A stretch of 64,000 bases of DNA. Source: Corynebacterium kalinowskii. Lineage in GTDB: Bacteria > Actinomycetota > Actinomycetes > Mycobacteriales > Mycobacteriaceae. Below are positions 57,885-64,000 of the stretch, in pieces. The position numbers and the translations under genes are program-made. The stretch is taken from NCBI RefSeq assembly GCF_009734385.1, contig NZ_CP046452.1, positions 248,001 to 312,000 on the forward strand, in the 5' to 3' direction. Each line of letters begins with the position of its first letter. Position 1 is the stretch's first letter. A model generated the notes under the pieces. That model ran no database searches. It was not told where the DNA came from and worked only from the letters and a program-made list of their open reading frames with translations.

Positions 57885-58489
57885 TTCGGTGCTCTGCACA
57901 ATGATGCACTGAGAGGCATCGGCGATCGGCAGGGTTCCTGAGTGTAAAGGTCATTGCCTGAGCGTTTCCTGAGCTTGTAACGGCATGGAACATCACCTTG
58001 GAAAGGTATTACTAAAGGGCTGGTGGGGGAGCGTTTTTAGGTAGCTTTGCCGCATCCATTCTTTACAAGTTGCAGTTAGTGGCAGGGGAATCATTGCCTA
58101 AAACAGGGCCGCGGCCGGTATTGCTGAGAGTTTGATTCAAATAGTCGGCCGAAACAGTGTGTGTCCTTAATATCTTTTACGTGCTTTATCAGTACGGTTC
58201 AGAAAGATTATCTAATAAATAACCAAACCACTTCCCAATAGGCGGGTGAAGTTGCAGGTCACGGAAACATTGGCGACATATATAGGAAAATTGGTGACCA
58301 AACACCTACTTTTATTCCGACAATCCACTTAAAAAACACTAAGATTAGAATAGACAAACCTGAGAGTAGGTCATACTATGTTCTCTTAGGTTCATGTATC
58401 TACCCAAGGGTAGCGGTGAATGTCTAAGAGAAACTTAAGTCTGCGTCCCGTGTTGGGGCGGGACGAGCCTTGAAAGGTCGAAAAATTAA
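57885..58489. other. 605-bp non-coding leader region upstream of the adhesin gene
   Basis: No gene is seen. The stretch is richer in A/T than its left neighbours. It holds three closely spaced CCTGAG motifs (about 57938-57977), a palindrome GGCCGCGGCC (58107-58116), and near the gene a CTACCC-AA-GGGTAG hairpin (58400-58413) and a CGTCCCG/CGGGACG hairpin (58444-58465). These may control the adhesin; no promoter can be fixed with confidence. Confidence 0.6.
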
Positions 58490-61400
58490 ATGACTGGTAA
58501 TCGTTCAGTGCGAAGCGGTGGGACACTCGCCGGCTTCGCTGACACAAGGATTGGATCCTGGTGGGGTAGGGCTTTAGCCCTATTGATGGCTTTGGTTATC
58601 GCGGTCGGTGGTGTTATGGTCGCCACCAATCAGAAGGCAGAGGCTGTCGCAATTGGCGATACGGTTTCTGTCAACTCGGGTACTTCCGGTTATCCGATTG
58701 ACGATTCTAAAAGGCTCCTGGATTCTTATCCGGAGCTGTTTGTGATCGAGGATGCTAATGGCGTCTTGATCGGGCAGACGTACTGCATTGAGTTGCGCGT
58801 CGGAATTGCCCCGACTGTCACAGGCACGATTGGGCGTTGGGATTCCTTTTCGGGAAATAACAATTTCAAGAGCGACCAGGTAGTCCGGGAAAGGGTCAAC
58901 TGGATCGTTGCCAATTCTTACCCTGCAGTGAGCCTAGAAGAGTTGCGGCAGCATTTGGGATTGCAGCCAGGTGAACTAAATGAGGCCTCTGCCATTTCTC
59001 AGACTCAGGCTGCGATTTGGGAGCTAACTGAAGGTACGGACTTCCAATACAACGGCCTCAGATTCGATCCTTTTCAGGATGCGGAGCAAGTGGCTGCACT
59101 GCAAGCAGGTCAGTATAAGCTCTATGACTACTTGCTTTCAGCTGCAAATGTCGGTCGTCCAGAGAGCTCGAATTTCTCAGGTAGTATCTCTCAGAACACA
59201 GCTGTTACCGCAACCAAGAGTGGCGAACTTGTTGGCCCAATCGTCTTCGACTCTTCCGGCAAATTCTCTGTTGAGCCGGCAAAGGGATTTCAGGTTGTAG
59301 ATGCGTCTGGCAATCCAGTTGATATTCACAACGTGGTATCCGGTCAAGAGTTGTACCTTAAGATTGTTGATCCTGCCCTTGCCACAGAATCAGGTACAGC
59401 TACCTTGAAGGCAGTAGTTTCTGGCACTGCTATTTCAGGCGCGATTGTAAATGTGGGCTCCGGTTGGTCTCATTCGCAAACTACGATTCTTACCCACGAT
59501 CGTTCTGCAGAAATATCTGCCACGGCGTCCGTAACTTGGACTGCACCCCAGCCGTCGATTGCTACTTCTGCGATCGATCAGATTGATGGTGACAAGATTA
59601 TTTCTGCCAATGGTGGCGTTGTTGTTGACACTGTGACATATTCCAACCTTGAGGTAGGCAAGACTTACACAATCAAGGGCGAGCTGATGGACAAGGCTAC
59701 TGGCGCGAGCACCGGCGTCACCGCAGAAAAGACGTTCACTGCCACCGCTGTGAATGGTACGGTCGAGCTGTCTTTCACCGTTCCTGCAGGTAACGCTGGT
59801 AAAACTTTGGTTGCGTTTGAGACCGCTTACGATGCCACTGGCGCTGTTGTTGCTGAGCACAGGGACATCAACGATGCAGCTCAGACCGTCACAGTAGAAA
59901 CCCCCACTGAGCATGCGGTGAAGATTTCTAAGGTTGATATCGCTGGTGCCGAGCTTGCTGGTGCTGAGATTGTGATCAAGGATGCTGCTGGTGTTGAGAT
60001 TGAGAAGTGGACCTCTGGTACCGCGGCTCATGAGTTCACTCTGCCTGCTGGCGAGTACACCTTTGTGGAAAACGCTGCTCCTGCAGGTTTTGACAAGGTC
60101 ACTGATATTACGTTCACTGTGAATGCTGATGGCACGATCACCACGACCACGATTGATGGTGTGGTTGTTGCATCCGGTAACACGATGACGGTCACCGACA
60201 AGGCGATCGAGCATGCGGTGAAGATTTCTAAGGTTGATATCGCTGGTGCCGAGCTTGCTGGTGCTGAGATTGTGATCAAGGATGCTGCTGGTGTTGAGAT
60301 TGAGAAGTGGACCTCTGGTACCACGGCTCATGAGTTCACTCTGCCTGCTGGCGAGTACACCTTTGTGGAAAACGCTGCTCCTGCAGGTTTTGACAAGGTC
60401 ACTGATATTACGTTCACTGTGAATGCTGATGGCACGATCACCACGACCACGATTGATGGTGTGGTTGTTGCATCCGGTAACACGATGACGGTCACCGACA
60501 AGGCGATCGAGCATGCGGTGAAGATTTCTAAGGTTGATATCGCTGGTGCCGAGCTTGCTGGTGCTGAGATTGTGATCAAGGATGCTGCTGGTGTTGAGAT
60601 TGAGAAGTGGACCTCTGGTACCGCGGCTCATGAGTTCACTCTGCCTGCTGGCGAGTACACCTTTGTGGAAAACGCTGCTCCTGCAGGTTTTGACAAGGTC
60701 ACTGATATTACGTTCACTGTGAATGCTGATGGCACGATCACCACGACCACGATTGATGGTGTGGTTGTTGCATCCGGTAACACGATGACGGTCACCGACA
60801 AGGCGATCGAGCATGCGGTGAAGATTTCTAAGGTTGATATCGCTGGTGCCGAGCTTGCTGGTGCTGAGATTGTGATCAAGGATGCTGCTGGTGTTGAGAT
60901 TGAGAAGTGGACCTCTGGTACCGCGGCTCATGAGTTCACTCTGCCTGCTGGCGAGTACACCTTTGTGGAAAACGCTGCTCCTGCAGGTTTTGACAAGGTC
61001 ACTGATATTACGTTCACTGTGAATGCTGATGGCACGATCACCACGACCACGATTGATGGTGTGGTTGTTGCATCCGGTAACACGATGACGGTCACCGACA
61101 AGGCGACTGTCACCACTCCAGTTGTCACCACGACTCCAGTCGAGACCACGACTCCTGTTGTGACCACGACTCCTGTTGTGACCACGACTCCTGTTGTGAC
61201 CACGACTCCTGTCGAGACGACCACTCCTGTCGAGACGACCACTCCTGTTGTGACCACGACTCCGGTTGTGACCACGACTCCTGTCGAGACGACCACTCCT
61301 GTTGTGACGACCACTCCTGTTGTGACGACCACTCCTGTTGTGACGACCACTCCGGTTGTGACGACCACTCCGGTTGTTGAGGTCAAGATTGGTACGACTG

Positions 61401-64000
61401 CTACCGATAAGGCTGATGGTGATAAGGACGTTAACTTCACTACTGAGCAGCCCAAGACGGTAACTGACGTTATCTCTTACACTGGTCTGACCCCAGGCAA
61501 GGTGTACTTGGTTGAGGGCGACCTGGTTGTTGCCTCCGATCCTGCAACTGTTGCTGCATCTGCGTGGAAGACGTTTATTCCTACCTCTGCTGATGGCACT
61601 GTGACTGTGGACTTTACGGTTGATGCTTCTTGGGCTGGTCAGACTCTGGTAGCTTTCGAGGCTGTCTCTCTGGTCAACACTTCTAACGGCTCTGAGAAGC
61701 CTGCGGATGTTACCCCTGTTGCAGAGCACAAGGATCCAACGGATGCGGCTCAGACTGTGACCGTGTCCAAGGAAACCCCTGCTCCTACCACGACTCCTGT
61801 CGAGACGACCACTCCAGTTGTCACCACGACTCCTGTCGAGACGACCACTCCAGTTGTCACCACGACTCCTGTCGAGACGACCACTCCAGTTGTGACGACC
61901 ACTCCGGTTGTTGAGGTCAAGATCGGTACGACTGCTACCGATAAGGCTGATGGTGATAAGGACGTTAACTTCACTACTGAGCAGCCCAAGACGGTAACTG
62001 ACGTTATCTCTTACACTGGTCTGACCCCAGGCAAGGTGTACTTGGTTGAGGGCGACCTGGTTGTTGCCTCCGATCCTGCAACTGTTGCTGCATCTGCGTG
62101 GAAGACGTTTATTCCTACCTCTGCTGATGGCACTGTGACTGTGGACTTTACGGTTGATGCTTCTTGGGCTGGTCAGACTCTGGTAGCTTTCGAGGCTGTC
62201 TCTCTGGTCAACACTTTTAACGGCTCTGAGAAGCCTGCGGATGTTACCCCTGTTGCAGAGCACAAGGATCCAACGGATGCGGCTCAGACTGTGACCGTGT
62301 CCAAGGAAACCCCTGCTCCTACCACGACTCCTGTCGAGACGACAACTCCTGTTGTCACCACGACTCCTGTTGTGACGACCACTCCAGTCGAGACCACGAC
62401 TGCCGCTACTACCACTCCTGTTGTGACCACGACTGCCGCTACTACCACTCCTGTGGTCCCTGGTGACCATCCTGTAGTGATTTCCAAGGTTGACATCGCT
62501 GGCAATGAACTTCCAGGCGCCACTATCACGATCAAGGATGCTGCGGACAATGTTGTAGAGACCTTTACATCTACTTCGGAGCCACACAACATGGATCTCT
62601 CGGCCGGTGATTACACCTTCGTCGAAGATGCAGCTCCTGCAGGCTACGAGAAGGTCACCGATATCACCTTCACGGTGAATGCTGACGGTACAATTACGGT
62701 CACCTCTGTGGATGGACAGGCTGTTGCTGCTGGTAACGAGCTTACCGTCACCGATATGCCTTCAACTACGACTCCGGTAGCGACCGCTACTCCTGAGATT
62801 ACGACCCCCGTGGTCACCACCACTCCTGTTGTGACCACGACTCCTGTCGAGACGACTACTCCTGCAGTGACGACTACTCCTGTAGTCACCACGACCCCAA
62901 TTGTTACCACCACCCCGGCAGTTTCTACCACGCCAGCTCCTTCTGAGCAGGTGGCGAAGATTGCTTTGAAGAAGTACATCGGTGACCAGGAGTTCAAGGG
63001 TGTTGAGGTTCCTCAGGCTGGTGGCGCTGGTTCTGCTGGCGTGATTGATGCTGAGAACACTAAGGCCGCTTACATTGCTAAGGCTGGCCAGGATCTGGTG
63101 ATCACGTTCGCTGTGACGAACACTGGTGCGCTGGATATGAAGAGTGTTTCTGTTGCTGATGAGCTGATCCTGGGTGCTGAGTTTGATTCCCAGCCGGTTA
63201 TGAATATCACTCCTGCTGCACAGGACATCAAGGTCGGCGAGACGAAGTTCTTCACCGCTACGGTGAATGCTCCGAAGGCTGGTTCCTTCCATGGTGACGT
63301 TGCTAAGGCAACGGGTACTCCGGTTGATGGCAATGGTAACGAGGTCCCATTCAAGGATGAGAATGGCAACTCCCATAATCCTGGGGATAAGGTCACCTCG
63401 AATGAGGACAAGGCACACTCCACCACGATGAATCCAGGTGTCACCACCTCTGCGACCGACAAGGCTGATGGCGACAAATCACTCGCTATGGGCGGGTCTG
63501 TCGTGACCGATACGGTGACTTACACCGGCCTTGTTGCTGGCAACTGGTACACCGTGACCGGTGAGTTGATGGACAAGGCTACCGGTGCTGGCACTGGTAT
63601 CACCGCGTGGAAGACGTTTAAGGCAGCTGCTGCTAATGGCACTGTTGAACTTGACTTCACTGTTCCTGCTGGCTTCGCTGGTAAGACCCTGGTGGTCTTC
63701 GAGTACCTGCACAACGCAGTGATCGATGGCAGTGGCCAGCCAACCCCTGGTTCCAACGGCACTAACGAGGGCACCACTGGCACCACCTCTGGTGCTGAGA
63801 AGACCCCTGTAATCGCTGAGCACACCGATATTAACGATGGTGCTCAAACGGTGAACGTGGCGGAGAAGATCCGAACCACTGCAACTGATGCCAAGGATAC
63901 GGACAAGGCGATCTCTGAAAACGGTGGCACCATCAAGGACACTGTTCAGTACGAAGGTCTTGTCGCTGGTGGTCAGTACATCTTGGCCGGCACGCTGATG
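58490..64000 (+). CDS. Giant modular surface adhesin, thioester domain plus SpaA-like and VaFE-type repeats (3' end beyond window)
   Basis: The frame is open from ATG 58490 to the window end, 1837 codons, with no stop; it continues beyond. A long signal peptide ends near residue 53 (core ALALLMALVIAVGGVMVA). An N-terminal thioester (TQXA-like) domain has YCIE with Cys99 and TQAAIW with Gln173. Then: a VaFE-type repeat (~357-470), four SpaA-like 100-residue repeats (474-873), a TTPVV/TTPVE linker, two VaFE-type repeats (~964-1094 and ~1142-1272) with linkers, a fifth diverged SpaA-like unit, another linker, a DUF11-like domain (~1488-1645), one complete VaFE unit and the start of the next. VaFE/SpaA domains often form intramolecular isopeptide bonds. 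Function: probable covalent host-surface adhesin. Confidence 0.88.
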   Translation, partial: MTGNRSVRSGGTLAGFADTRIGSWWGRALALLMALVIAVGGVMVATNQKAEAVAIGDTVSVNSGTSGYPIDDSKRLLDSYPELFVIEDANGVLIGQTYCIELRVGIAPTVTGTIGRWDSFSGNNNFKSDQVVRERVNWIVANSYPAVSLEELRQHLGLQPGELNEASAISQTQAAIWELTEGTDFQYNGLRFDPFQDAEQVAALQAGQYKLYDYLLSAANVGRPESSNFSGSISQNTAVTATKSGELVGPIVFDSSGKFSVEPAKGFQVVDASGNPVDIHNVVSGQELYLKIVDPALATESGTATLKAVVSGTAISGAIVNVGSGWSHSQTTILTHDRSAEISATASVTWTAPQPSIATSAIDQIDGDKIISANGGVVVDTVTYSNLEVGKTYTIKGELMDKATGASTGVTAEKTFTATAVNGTVELSFTVPAGNAGKTLVAFETAYDATGAVVAEHRDINDAAQTVTVETPTEHAVKISKVDIAGAELAGAEIVIKDAAGVEIEKWTSGTAAHEFTLPAGEYTFVENAAPAGFDKVTDITFTVNADGTITTTTIDGVVVASGNTMTVTDKAIEHAVKISKVDIAGAELAGAEIVIKDAAGVEIEKWTSGTTAHEFTLPAGEYTFVENAAPAGFDKVTDITFTVNADGTITTTTIDGVVVASGNTMTVTDKAIEHAVKISKVDIAGAELAGAEIVIKDAAGVEIEKWTSGTAAHEFTLPAGEYTFVENAAPAGFDKVTDITFTVNADGTITTTTIDGVVVASGNTMTVTDKAIEHAVKISKVDIAGAELAGAEIVIKDAAGVEIEKWTSGTAAHEFTLPAGEYTFVENAAPAGFDKVTDITFTVNADGTITTTTIDGVVVASGNTMTVTDKATVTTPVVTTTPVETTTPVVTTTPVVTTTPVVTTTPVETTTPVETTTPVVTTTPVVTTTPVETTTPVVTTTPVVTTTPVVTTTPVVTTTPVVEVKIGTTATDKADGDKDVNFTTEQPKTVTDVISYTGLTPGKVYLVEGDLVVASDPATVAASAWKTFIPTSADGTVTVDFTVDASWAGQTLVAFEAVSLVNTSNGSEKPADVTPVAEHKDPTDAAQTVTVSKETPAPTTTPVETTTPVVTTTPVETTTPVVTTTPVETTTPVVTTTPVVEVKIGTTATDKADGDKDVNFTTEQPKTVTDVISYTGLTPGKVYLVEGDLVVASDPATVAASAWKTFIPTSADGTVTVDFTVDASWAGQTLVAFEAVSLVNTFNGSEKPADVTPVAEHKDPTDAAQTVTVSKETPAPTTTPVETTTPVVTTTPVVTTTPVETTTAATTTPVVTTTAATTTPVVPGDHPVVISKVDIAGNELPGATITIKDAADNVVETFTSTSEPHNMDLSAGDYTFVEDAAPAGYEKVTDITFTVNADGTITVTSVDGQAVAAGNELTVTDMPSTTTPVATATPEITTPVVTTTPVVTTTPVETTTPAVTTTPVVTTTPIVTTTPAVSTTPAPSEQVAKIALKKYIGDQEFKGVEVPQAGGAGSAGVIDAENTKAAYIAKAGQDLVITFAVTNTGALDMKSVSVADELILGAEFDSQPVMNITPAAQDIKVGETKFFTATVNAPKAGSFHGDVAKATGTPVDGNGNEVPFKDENGNSHNPGDKVTSNEDKAHSTTMNPGVTTSATDKADGDKSLAMGGSVVTDTVTYTGLVAGNWYTVTGELMDKATGAGTGITAWKTFKAAAANGTVELDFTVPAGFAGKTLVVFEYLHNAVIDGSGQPTPGSNGTNEGTTGTTSGAEKTPVIAEHTDINDGAQTVNVAEKIRTTATDAKDTDKAISENGGTIKDTVQYEGLVAGGQYILAGTLM
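59909..61108 (+). repeat. Four 300-bp tandem repeats in the adhesin gene
   Basis: Units start at 59909, 60209, 60509 and 60809, each 100 codons (GAG CAT GCG GTG AAG...). They read as identical except one base at 60323 (ACC GCG becomes ACC ACG in unit 2, Ala to Thr). Confidence 0.95.
61109..61378 (+). repeat. Low-complexity TTPVV/TTPVE linker repeat
   Basis: 15-bp units encode TTTPV(V/E). Similar linkers recur at about 61790-61911, 62320-62460 and 62760-62940. Confidence 0.9.
61381..62310 (+). repeat. 534-bp period duplication of a VaFE-type unit
   Basis: The segment starting at 61381 recurs at 61915 with only scattered changes (att/atc; TCT to TTT, Ser to Phe at 62217). The period is a multiple of three, so the frame is kept. 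Confidence 0.9.

Follow-up and report, generated by a model that had tools for sequence, protein, structure and literature searches.

The window, a 64,000-nucleotide stretch of the Corynebacterium kalinowskii genome (a single contig of 2,510,218 bases, of which the window is C1:248001-312000), ends inside a gene for a giant surface protein. Its frame opens with an ATG at window position 58490 and contains no stop up to 64000, giving within the window the 1837 codons that the first-pass annotation had set as a minimum. On the contig the complete gene has 2044 codons (L002:490-6624, stop included; C1:306490-312624). An early stop without a wall anchor, named beforehand as the outcome that would speak against an anchored fibre, did not occur: the frame runs on for 624 bases beyond the window and ends in a sorting signal. 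Pfam placed one thioester domain (TED, residues 97-220; 8.5e-15), five TQ domains (4e-131) and five SpaA domains (3.4e-57) on the 2044-aa protein, and NCBIfam placed five VaFE domains, TQXA and a borderline LPXTG anchor, bearing out the SpaA-like and VaFE-type domains that had been recognized from the letters. Five TQ and five SpaA domains at these values rule out a chance frame. Pfam side matches to Poly_export, DUF5013 and others fall on repeat sequence, where no stretch passes by itself, and a long minus-strand frame antisense to the repeats was not accepted as a gene. The features are collected in Table 1.

The gene has a GH76 gene on one side (PF03663, 61.5 bits; flank at window 57885-58489) and the class II aldolase gene fba on the other (flank at L002:6625-6736). 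In 14 named Corynebacterium loci found via the GH76 protein, the closest GH76 proteins were those of C. spheniscorum and C. hylobatis (60% identity). GH76 and fba were direct neighbors (gap < 400 bases) in 10 of the 14; 5.5 kb of other frames separates them in C. mendelii, and in three loci fba falls outside the stretch retrieved. Because the two genes adjoin each other in these 10 relatives, the adhesin gene looks like a single-gene insertion. A tblastn search with the adhesin (E 1e-8) found no match in any of the 14 loci, and the GC content of the gene is 53.6%, lower than the 59.2% of the window. A homologue search with the full protein, including the TED region, passed 0 of 8000 candidates, and a TED-pattern scan of genome contigs gave 23 pattern stretches and zero relatives. 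Scanning the locus for promoters and terminators yielded 3 and 7, respectively, against 3.8 and 5.3 expected. Downstream of fba, around purA (L002:10155-15075), lie three mutually similar frames that by eye resemble transporter membrane components.

Table 1. Features of the adhesin gene. Plain coordinates are window positions; those with the prefix L002 lie on the retrieved locus.
Feature	Coordinates	Strand	Remarks
TIE (thioester, isopeptide, ester) adhesin gene, cut by window end	58490..64000	+	whole protein 2044 aa
N-terminal export signal, residues 1-52	58490..58645	+	hydrophobic core and AEA, by eye
Class II-like thioester domain, residues 55-354	58652..59551	+	TED 8.5e-15; borders by eye
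Cys99, thioester nucleophile (predicted)	58784..58786	+	37/37 aligned; sole Cys of protein
Gln173 of TQxxΦW helix motif	59006..59008	+	36/37 aligned; not the thioester Gln
Gln330 in SHSQTTIL, predicted thioester partner	59477..59479	+	invariant in 14-sequence alignment
TQ ester-bond domain 1, residues 355-469	59552..59896	+	Thr359, Asp380, Glu444, His457, Gln465
Four tandem CnaB2/SpaA domains, 100 aa each	59909..61106	+	0-3 base differences per 300
Thr/Pro/Val linker, residues 872-963	61103..61378	+	six-residue units, 18-base period
TQ ester-bond domain 2, Thr969...Gln1088	61379..61765	+	borders by motif
Thr/Pro/Val linker	61781..61912	+	repeat period and sequence
TQ ester-bond domain 3, Thr1147...Gln1266	61913..62299	+	borders by motif
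CnaB/SpaA domain 5	62468..62761	+	Lys1333, Glu1379, Asp1422
Thr/Pro linker	62768..62947	+	repeat period and sequence
DUF7507/DUF11-like domain, residues 1486-1640	62945..63409	+	below curated cut-offs
TQ ester-bond domain 4, Thr1653...Gln1786	63431..63859	+	borders by motif
TQ ester-bond domain 5, first part	63860..64000	+	rest past window, to Gln1937
Hydrophobic segment FPWLALIPLIPLVGGGIIS, residues 1947-1965	L002:6328-6384	+	between last ester domain and LANTG
LANTG and sorting helix	L002:6526-6621	+	outside window

Wall anchor and the hydrophobic segment before it

The protein ends in KGLLANTG-ANVAGLAGIAALMMLLGAALIRRRKEN, that is, in LANTG followed by a hydrophobic helix and the basic tail RRRKEN; the NCBIfam LPXTG anchor model fell just short at 15.6 bits (cut-off 15.9) in one search and passed at 23.3 bits in another. 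Three sortase matches were found in the genome: one is standalone, and the other two belong to a pilus cluster. The standalone sortase is class E (254 bits, cut-off 160), and the one pilus-cluster sortase that was scored is class C. Extending the sequence therefore recovered the anchor and sortase that the first-pass annotation had placed beyond the window. Class E sortases recognize LAXTG (PMC5148588), and the housekeeping sortase SrtF of C. diphtheriae attaches proteins to the wall (PMC12445094). By sequence, the adhesin has the LAxTG motif, hydrophobic helix and basic tail of a class E substrate in a genome with a class E sortase.

The segment FPWLALIPLIPLVGGGIIS is charge-free, hydrophobic and Pro/Gly-rich, and is followed by a 47-residue linker that opens with GSSES and leads to LANTG. 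A comparable segment occurs in five of the seven LAxTG proteins found in this genome (the adhesin and proteins of 3581, 702, 352 and 296 aa), a list that may be incomplete because the 439-aa protein was missed by the family search; it is absent from the 258-aa and 439-aa proteins (the latter by eye) and from both LPxTG pilins (0/2). Another LANTG protein of the same genome has an IPIIPIPIPIP segment.

We scored tails by a rule fixed before any mycolate-gene check: the 160 residues preceding the motif were searched for the best 14-mer free of D, E, K, R, N, Q and H, with Pro counted as 0 and a threshold score of at least 1.5. In a first survey, which leaned to TED proteins, the non-pilin tails of Corynebacterium passed in 40 of 59 cases (36/48 for LAxTG) and its pilin-like tails in 0/18; elsewhere in the order, the non-pilin tails of other families passed in 1/6. 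For other orders of the class, 5 of 40 non-pilin tails passed, four of the five being signal peptides of short proteins by eye. This last control is poorly matched (38 of the 40 tails are LPxTG and 2 LAxTG, many from one or two families), so our conclusions rest on the Pks13 contrast described below. The segment lay a median of 58 residues before the motif in the 40 passing tails (range 26-146). Since the layer read as peptidoglycan in C. glutamicum is ~14 nm thick, with a mycomembrane of ~7 nm (PMC12021427), a linker stretched at ~0.34 nm per residue would span about one wall thickness. Small base-pilin-like proteins of other Corynebacterium (L076, L091, L092, L094 and L100) have an alternating Ile/Val-Pro segment before LPxTG, for example PIPVPIPVP with GSS flanks, unlike pilin-like tails; L076 is below the threshold.

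TEDs were found in 39 of 242 Corynebacterium genomes. Among TED proteins with a sortase-like motif from Pks13-positive genomes, 20 of 24 passed the segment rule (37 TED loci scored). This count removes L020, whose motif is no anchor (otherwise 21/25), keeps L157 with its ISADTG motif, and leaves out the rows whose end could be assigned to no class (L144, L163 and the second frames of L149 and L157).

Mycolate synthesis requires Pks13. Our mycolate marker came from a 1582-aa frame of C. kalinowskii: its first 854 residues match mycolic_Pks13 best in NCBIfam (1443 bits with this part-length query, against a whole-protein cut-off of 2100). The frame stands directly after a FadD32-like frame, and both, as part-length queries, score under the whole-protein cut-offs. 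At E 1e-50 the marker was present in 227 of 242 Corynebacterium genomes and missing in 15, of which 13 are at least 94% complete. In genome G099 the match, near C1 position 2169035, lies inside an open frame of 14572 aa, compared with the usual 1600, possibly a fused or very large synthase.

For the Pks13-negative sample we took the LPXTG-family matches of all 15 genomes at E 0.2 (54 rows, 50 retrieved). The Pks13-positive sample comprised 22 genomes, every tenth of our numbering without G090 (Pks13-negative) and G190 (88% complete), of which 19 yielded matches at E 0.05 (89 rows, each of them retrieved). A sorting-signal filter and duplicate removal left 67 positive and 33 negative tails. The segment was present in 15 of 37 Pks13-positive LAxTG tails versus 0 of 21 Pks13-negative ones (Fisher p 0.0004; this and the following p value are too small because tails within a lineage are not independent) and in 0/20 pilin-like Corynebacterium tails of this sample. 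Four doubtful rows were counted, the negatives L211 and L240, whose upstream frame seems shifted or masked, and the positives L306 and L329; without them, and with the denominator of 37 kept, the contrast is 13/37 versus 0/19 (Fisher p 0.0023). The masked L236 and L239 were left out, as were L209, L210, L220 and L221, which come from Pks13-negative assemblies that are 53% and 77% complete. The 21 negative tails derive from G123 (12), G089 and G090 (5), the group of G087, G125, G136 and G202 (3), and G228 (1, doubtful). On a ClpB tree the Pks13-negative genomes require three or more separate changes, so absence of the segment is not one clade's habit.

We tentatively propose that, in corynebacteria with a mycomembrane, many sortase-anchored adhesins are threaded through it by a dedicated, helix-breaking hydrophobic segment placed about the wall's thickness before LAxTG. 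Such a segment would be Pro/Gly-rich enough for passage through the inner membrane and oily enough to stay in the mycomembrane, and Ser/Gly clusters resembling reported O-mycoloylation sites would often flank it; in the adhesin, residues 1947-1965 would then lie in or across the mycomembrane. If so, a single protein would be joined covalently to peptidoglycan and also embedded in the outer membrane. It is also conceivable, at a similarly tentative level, that the segment is hydrophobic low-complexity drift or a secretion pause unconnected to the outer membrane. Consistent with drift or a pause, 22 of the 37 blind-picked LAxTG tails from Pks13-positive genomes have no segment, a count that also rules out its presence in every wall protein of mycolate species, and the TED protein of the nearest relative (G074, L150) has none either. 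Shuffling the adhesin tail gave an equally good segment in 295 of 20000 trials, 10 of 86 internal windows of the protein pass the threshold, and the LAxTG habit elsewhere is hardly known, with 5 non-pilin LAxTG tails scored outside the genus in all. Three tails from the incomplete Pks13-negative assemblies (L209, L210 and L220) have the segment, which is contrary to the membrane proposal if those species truly lack Pks13. Against drift or a pause stand the empty set of Pks13-negative LAxTG tails, spread over at least three separate lineages though with 12 of the 21 from one genome, and the split between LAxTG proteins and LPxTG pilins in C. kalinowskii itself.

Two published cases bear on the membrane proposal. 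The S-layer protein PS2 of C. glutamicum is described as anchored in the mycomembrane through a hydrophobic segment at its C-terminus; the same source mentions further surface proteins whose ends resemble that of PS2 (PMC12021427). PS2 resembles the adhesin in having its hydrophobic segment after the surface domain, the membrane role being proposed in the adhesin; PS2 ends in its segment, whereas that of the adhesin is internal and is followed by the linker and sorting signal, so that the adhesin does not have a PS2-like end. O-mycoloylation is reported on Ser, less often Thr, in flexible stretches rich in Ser, Gly and Ala (PMC11066868). The GSS flanks of the adhesin resemble such sites, but Pks13-negative tails have Ser/Gly runs too, so that the flanks are no proof in themselves. 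Linkage of PorH and ProtX to the wall is described in a preprint (PMC12632848). We noticed no paper in the open-access literature on an outer-membrane segment in sortase-anchored proteins, and we do not claim novelty.

Stalk and thioester tip

All five TQ domains have, by motif, the Thr, the strand Asp, the Glu of VxFE and HxDxxDxxQ, and all five CnaB domains have the Lys, catalytic Glu and Asp (481/527/570, 581/627/670, 681/727/770 and 781/827/870 in the tandem copies). In a search of the PDB, the SpaA domains matched the fibronectin-binding protein domain 2x5p (2.6e-17), which we take to be the FbaB domain from which SpyCatcher originated, and SpyCatcher fusions were among the matches. The TQ domains matched 4mkm, a C. 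perfringens-type surface protein (4.7e-10). Both 4mkm and 4ni6 are Cpe0147, for which a Thr nucleophile, buried acids, a base/acid and a Gln electrophile are described (PMC12679949). Since these roles are matched in the TQ domains, the VaFE/TQ domains are predicted to form ester bonds. We therefore rejected VaFE as an isopeptide domain, its residue set being that of ester-bond chemistry; the isopeptide bonds first assigned to both kinds of domain remain the prediction for SpaA/CnaB, on the Lys/Glu/Asp motif, and fall away for VaFE.

The Thr/Pro/Val linkers noted at first sight are present, with their 18-base period. The DUF11-like domain fared less well: residues 1486-1640 match DUF7507 at 1.6e-5 and DUF11 at 0.0021, both short of their cut-offs, and are ~31-34% identical to repeats of the 3581-aa protein of the same genome, which has DUF7507 and DUF11 domains. 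That protein (L366:4391-15133; C1:2284391-2295133) ends in an LAKTG signal and has 18 DUF7507 stretches; six BLAST matches at an equal spacing of 299 residues and with identical score point to recent repeat expansion. In the adhesin, the tandem CnaB domains show 0-3 base differences in 300, and 2 bases in 435 distinguish TQ domains 2 and 3; judged from these repeats, its stalk has been lengthened or homogenized recently. Stalk length may vary between strains, and the number of the four near-identical CnaB repeats could have been misjudged in assembly.

At the tip, the first-pass annotation had paired Cys99 with Gln173. Its choice of Cys99 holds, as this residue is conserved in all 37 aligned TEDs and the 2044-aa protein has no other Cys. 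Gln173 we rejected as the partner; it belongs to the TQxxΦW helix, whose Gln is reported to be non-essential for thioester formation (PMC4450167, PMC6194298). In a 14-sequence TED alignment, Cys99, Gln173 and Gln330 are all invariant and Gln286 varies. A wider set has Gln at position 330 in 20 of 36 sequences; this set is partly misaligned, and many of its non-Gln rows look like letters from later stalk domains. The profile of the 14 TEDs matched 6fwy ("B-type Cna protein", 1.1e-8) and 6fwv ("Collagen Adhesion protein", 1.6e-6) best in the PDB, and 4c0z, 5dcq and 5a0l more weakly, 5a0l (0.015) being the weakest and the class I domain of SfbI (PMC6194298). By their names and lengths, 6fwy and 6fwv are taken to be the class II domains EfmTIE86-TED and BaTIE. 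In class II TEDs a beta-sandwich is inserted between helix 3 and the strand that bears the Gln; the profile alignment to the two structures reaches the domain end, and no Gln is placed exactly opposite Gln330. As a single query against PDB sequences, the TED region matched no TED.

Most likely, judging from the alignments, Cys99 pairs with Gln330. Because the Cys99-Gln330 spacing of 231 exceeds the 171-204 of solved class II TEDs (PMC6194298), and Gln286 (GQELYL) has a spacing of 187 and is invariant in a close four-sequence set, we keep Gln286 as a minor and rather unlikely rival. Its variation in the 14-sequence set, where Gln330 is constant, argues against it, as does its position: published class II constructs or domains stop about 22-35 residues past their Gln (PMC6194298), and the assumed domain end lies 24 residues past Gln330 and 68 past Gln286.

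An adhesin of the TIE kind

The protein combines an N-terminal thioester domain with its Cys motif, TQxxΦW and Gln, stalk domains of both isopeptide and ester type, and a secretion signal (by eye) with a sortase motif. We conclude that it is very probably a sortase-anchored TIE adhesin of a mycolate-type Corynebacterium, with export, a thioester tip, a cross-linked stalk and class E anchoring. The adhesin would be exported through the general secretory route. At its free end the class II-like domain would carry the Cys99-Gln330 thioester, which would bond covalently to a nucleophile, as that of SfbI does to a fibrinogen lysine; the five ester-bond and five isopeptide domains, with their Thr/Pro/Val spacers, would bear pulling force and resist protease; and the class E sortase would cleave LANTG and join the chain to the wall. 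The domains and LANTG signal thus support what had been predicted, a very long fibre that is cross-linked, anchored to the wall and tipped by a thioester. It is highly improbable that the adhesin, instead of being a monomeric wall protein, is a tip or shaft pilin that a class C sortase polymerizes: the genome does have a pilus cluster with two sortase genes, the one scored being class C, but the adhesin gene stands alone between GH76 and fba, far from that cluster, its product ends in LANTG after a long linker, and the hydrophobic segment is missing in 18/18 and 20/20 pilin-like Corynebacterium tails.

The protein had been called possibly undescribed, which applies to the individual protein and not to its kind, since TIE proteins were named in 2015, one of C. 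diphtheriae among them (PMC4450167). As described for SfbI, FbaB, BaTIE, EfmTIE86 and the C. diphtheriae TIE protein (PMC4450167, PMC6194298), they have in common with the adhesin an N-terminal TED, an isopeptide and/or ester stalk and a sortase anchor. The adhesin differs in its LAxTG motif in a cell with a Pks13-like gene, in a TED only remotely similar to solved ones, and in the extra hydrophobic segment before the linker, a comparison that does not extend to the C. diphtheriae TIE tail. The Mobiluncus mulieris adhesin is another giant TIE protein of an actinobacterium, and its predicted TED was modelled on SaTIE; at 7651 residues it is far larger and has LPxTG (PMC10619420; compared by description). 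The stalk of C. perfringens Cpe0147 (4mkm, 4ni6) shares the TQ domains, which the adhesin mixes with CnaB2 domains and Thr/Pro linkers. The FbaB CnaB2 domain, the SpyCatcher parent (2x5p), shares the isopeptide domain, of which the adhesin has four near-identical tandem copies and one diverged copy.

To the TIE set the adhesin adds a Corynebacterium protein whose stalk mixes ester and isopeptide domains and whose thioester tip is class II-like. It also touches on a wider problem, that sortases anchor proteins to peptidoglycan, yet the mycolic-acid bilayer of corynebacteria lies outside the wall. A recurrent segment before the anchor, unseen in the examined tails of Pks13-negative genomes that are nearly complete, would be a testable answer for some proteins.

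A C-terminal motif near PR..I..(I/V)PSG......MP..I is common to some TED proteins that lack a sorting signal (L138, L139, L140-L142, L143, L146, L156, L159, L160 and L162). In Pks13-negative genomes, the hydrophobic segment was found before this motif in 0 of 4 (L140, L141, L142 and L156, one lineage). In Pks13-positive genomes it was found in 5 of 7, in L143 by script and in L146, L159, L160 and L162 by eye, where the script missed it, and not in L138 or L139. The shared ending could be another anchoring or export signal.
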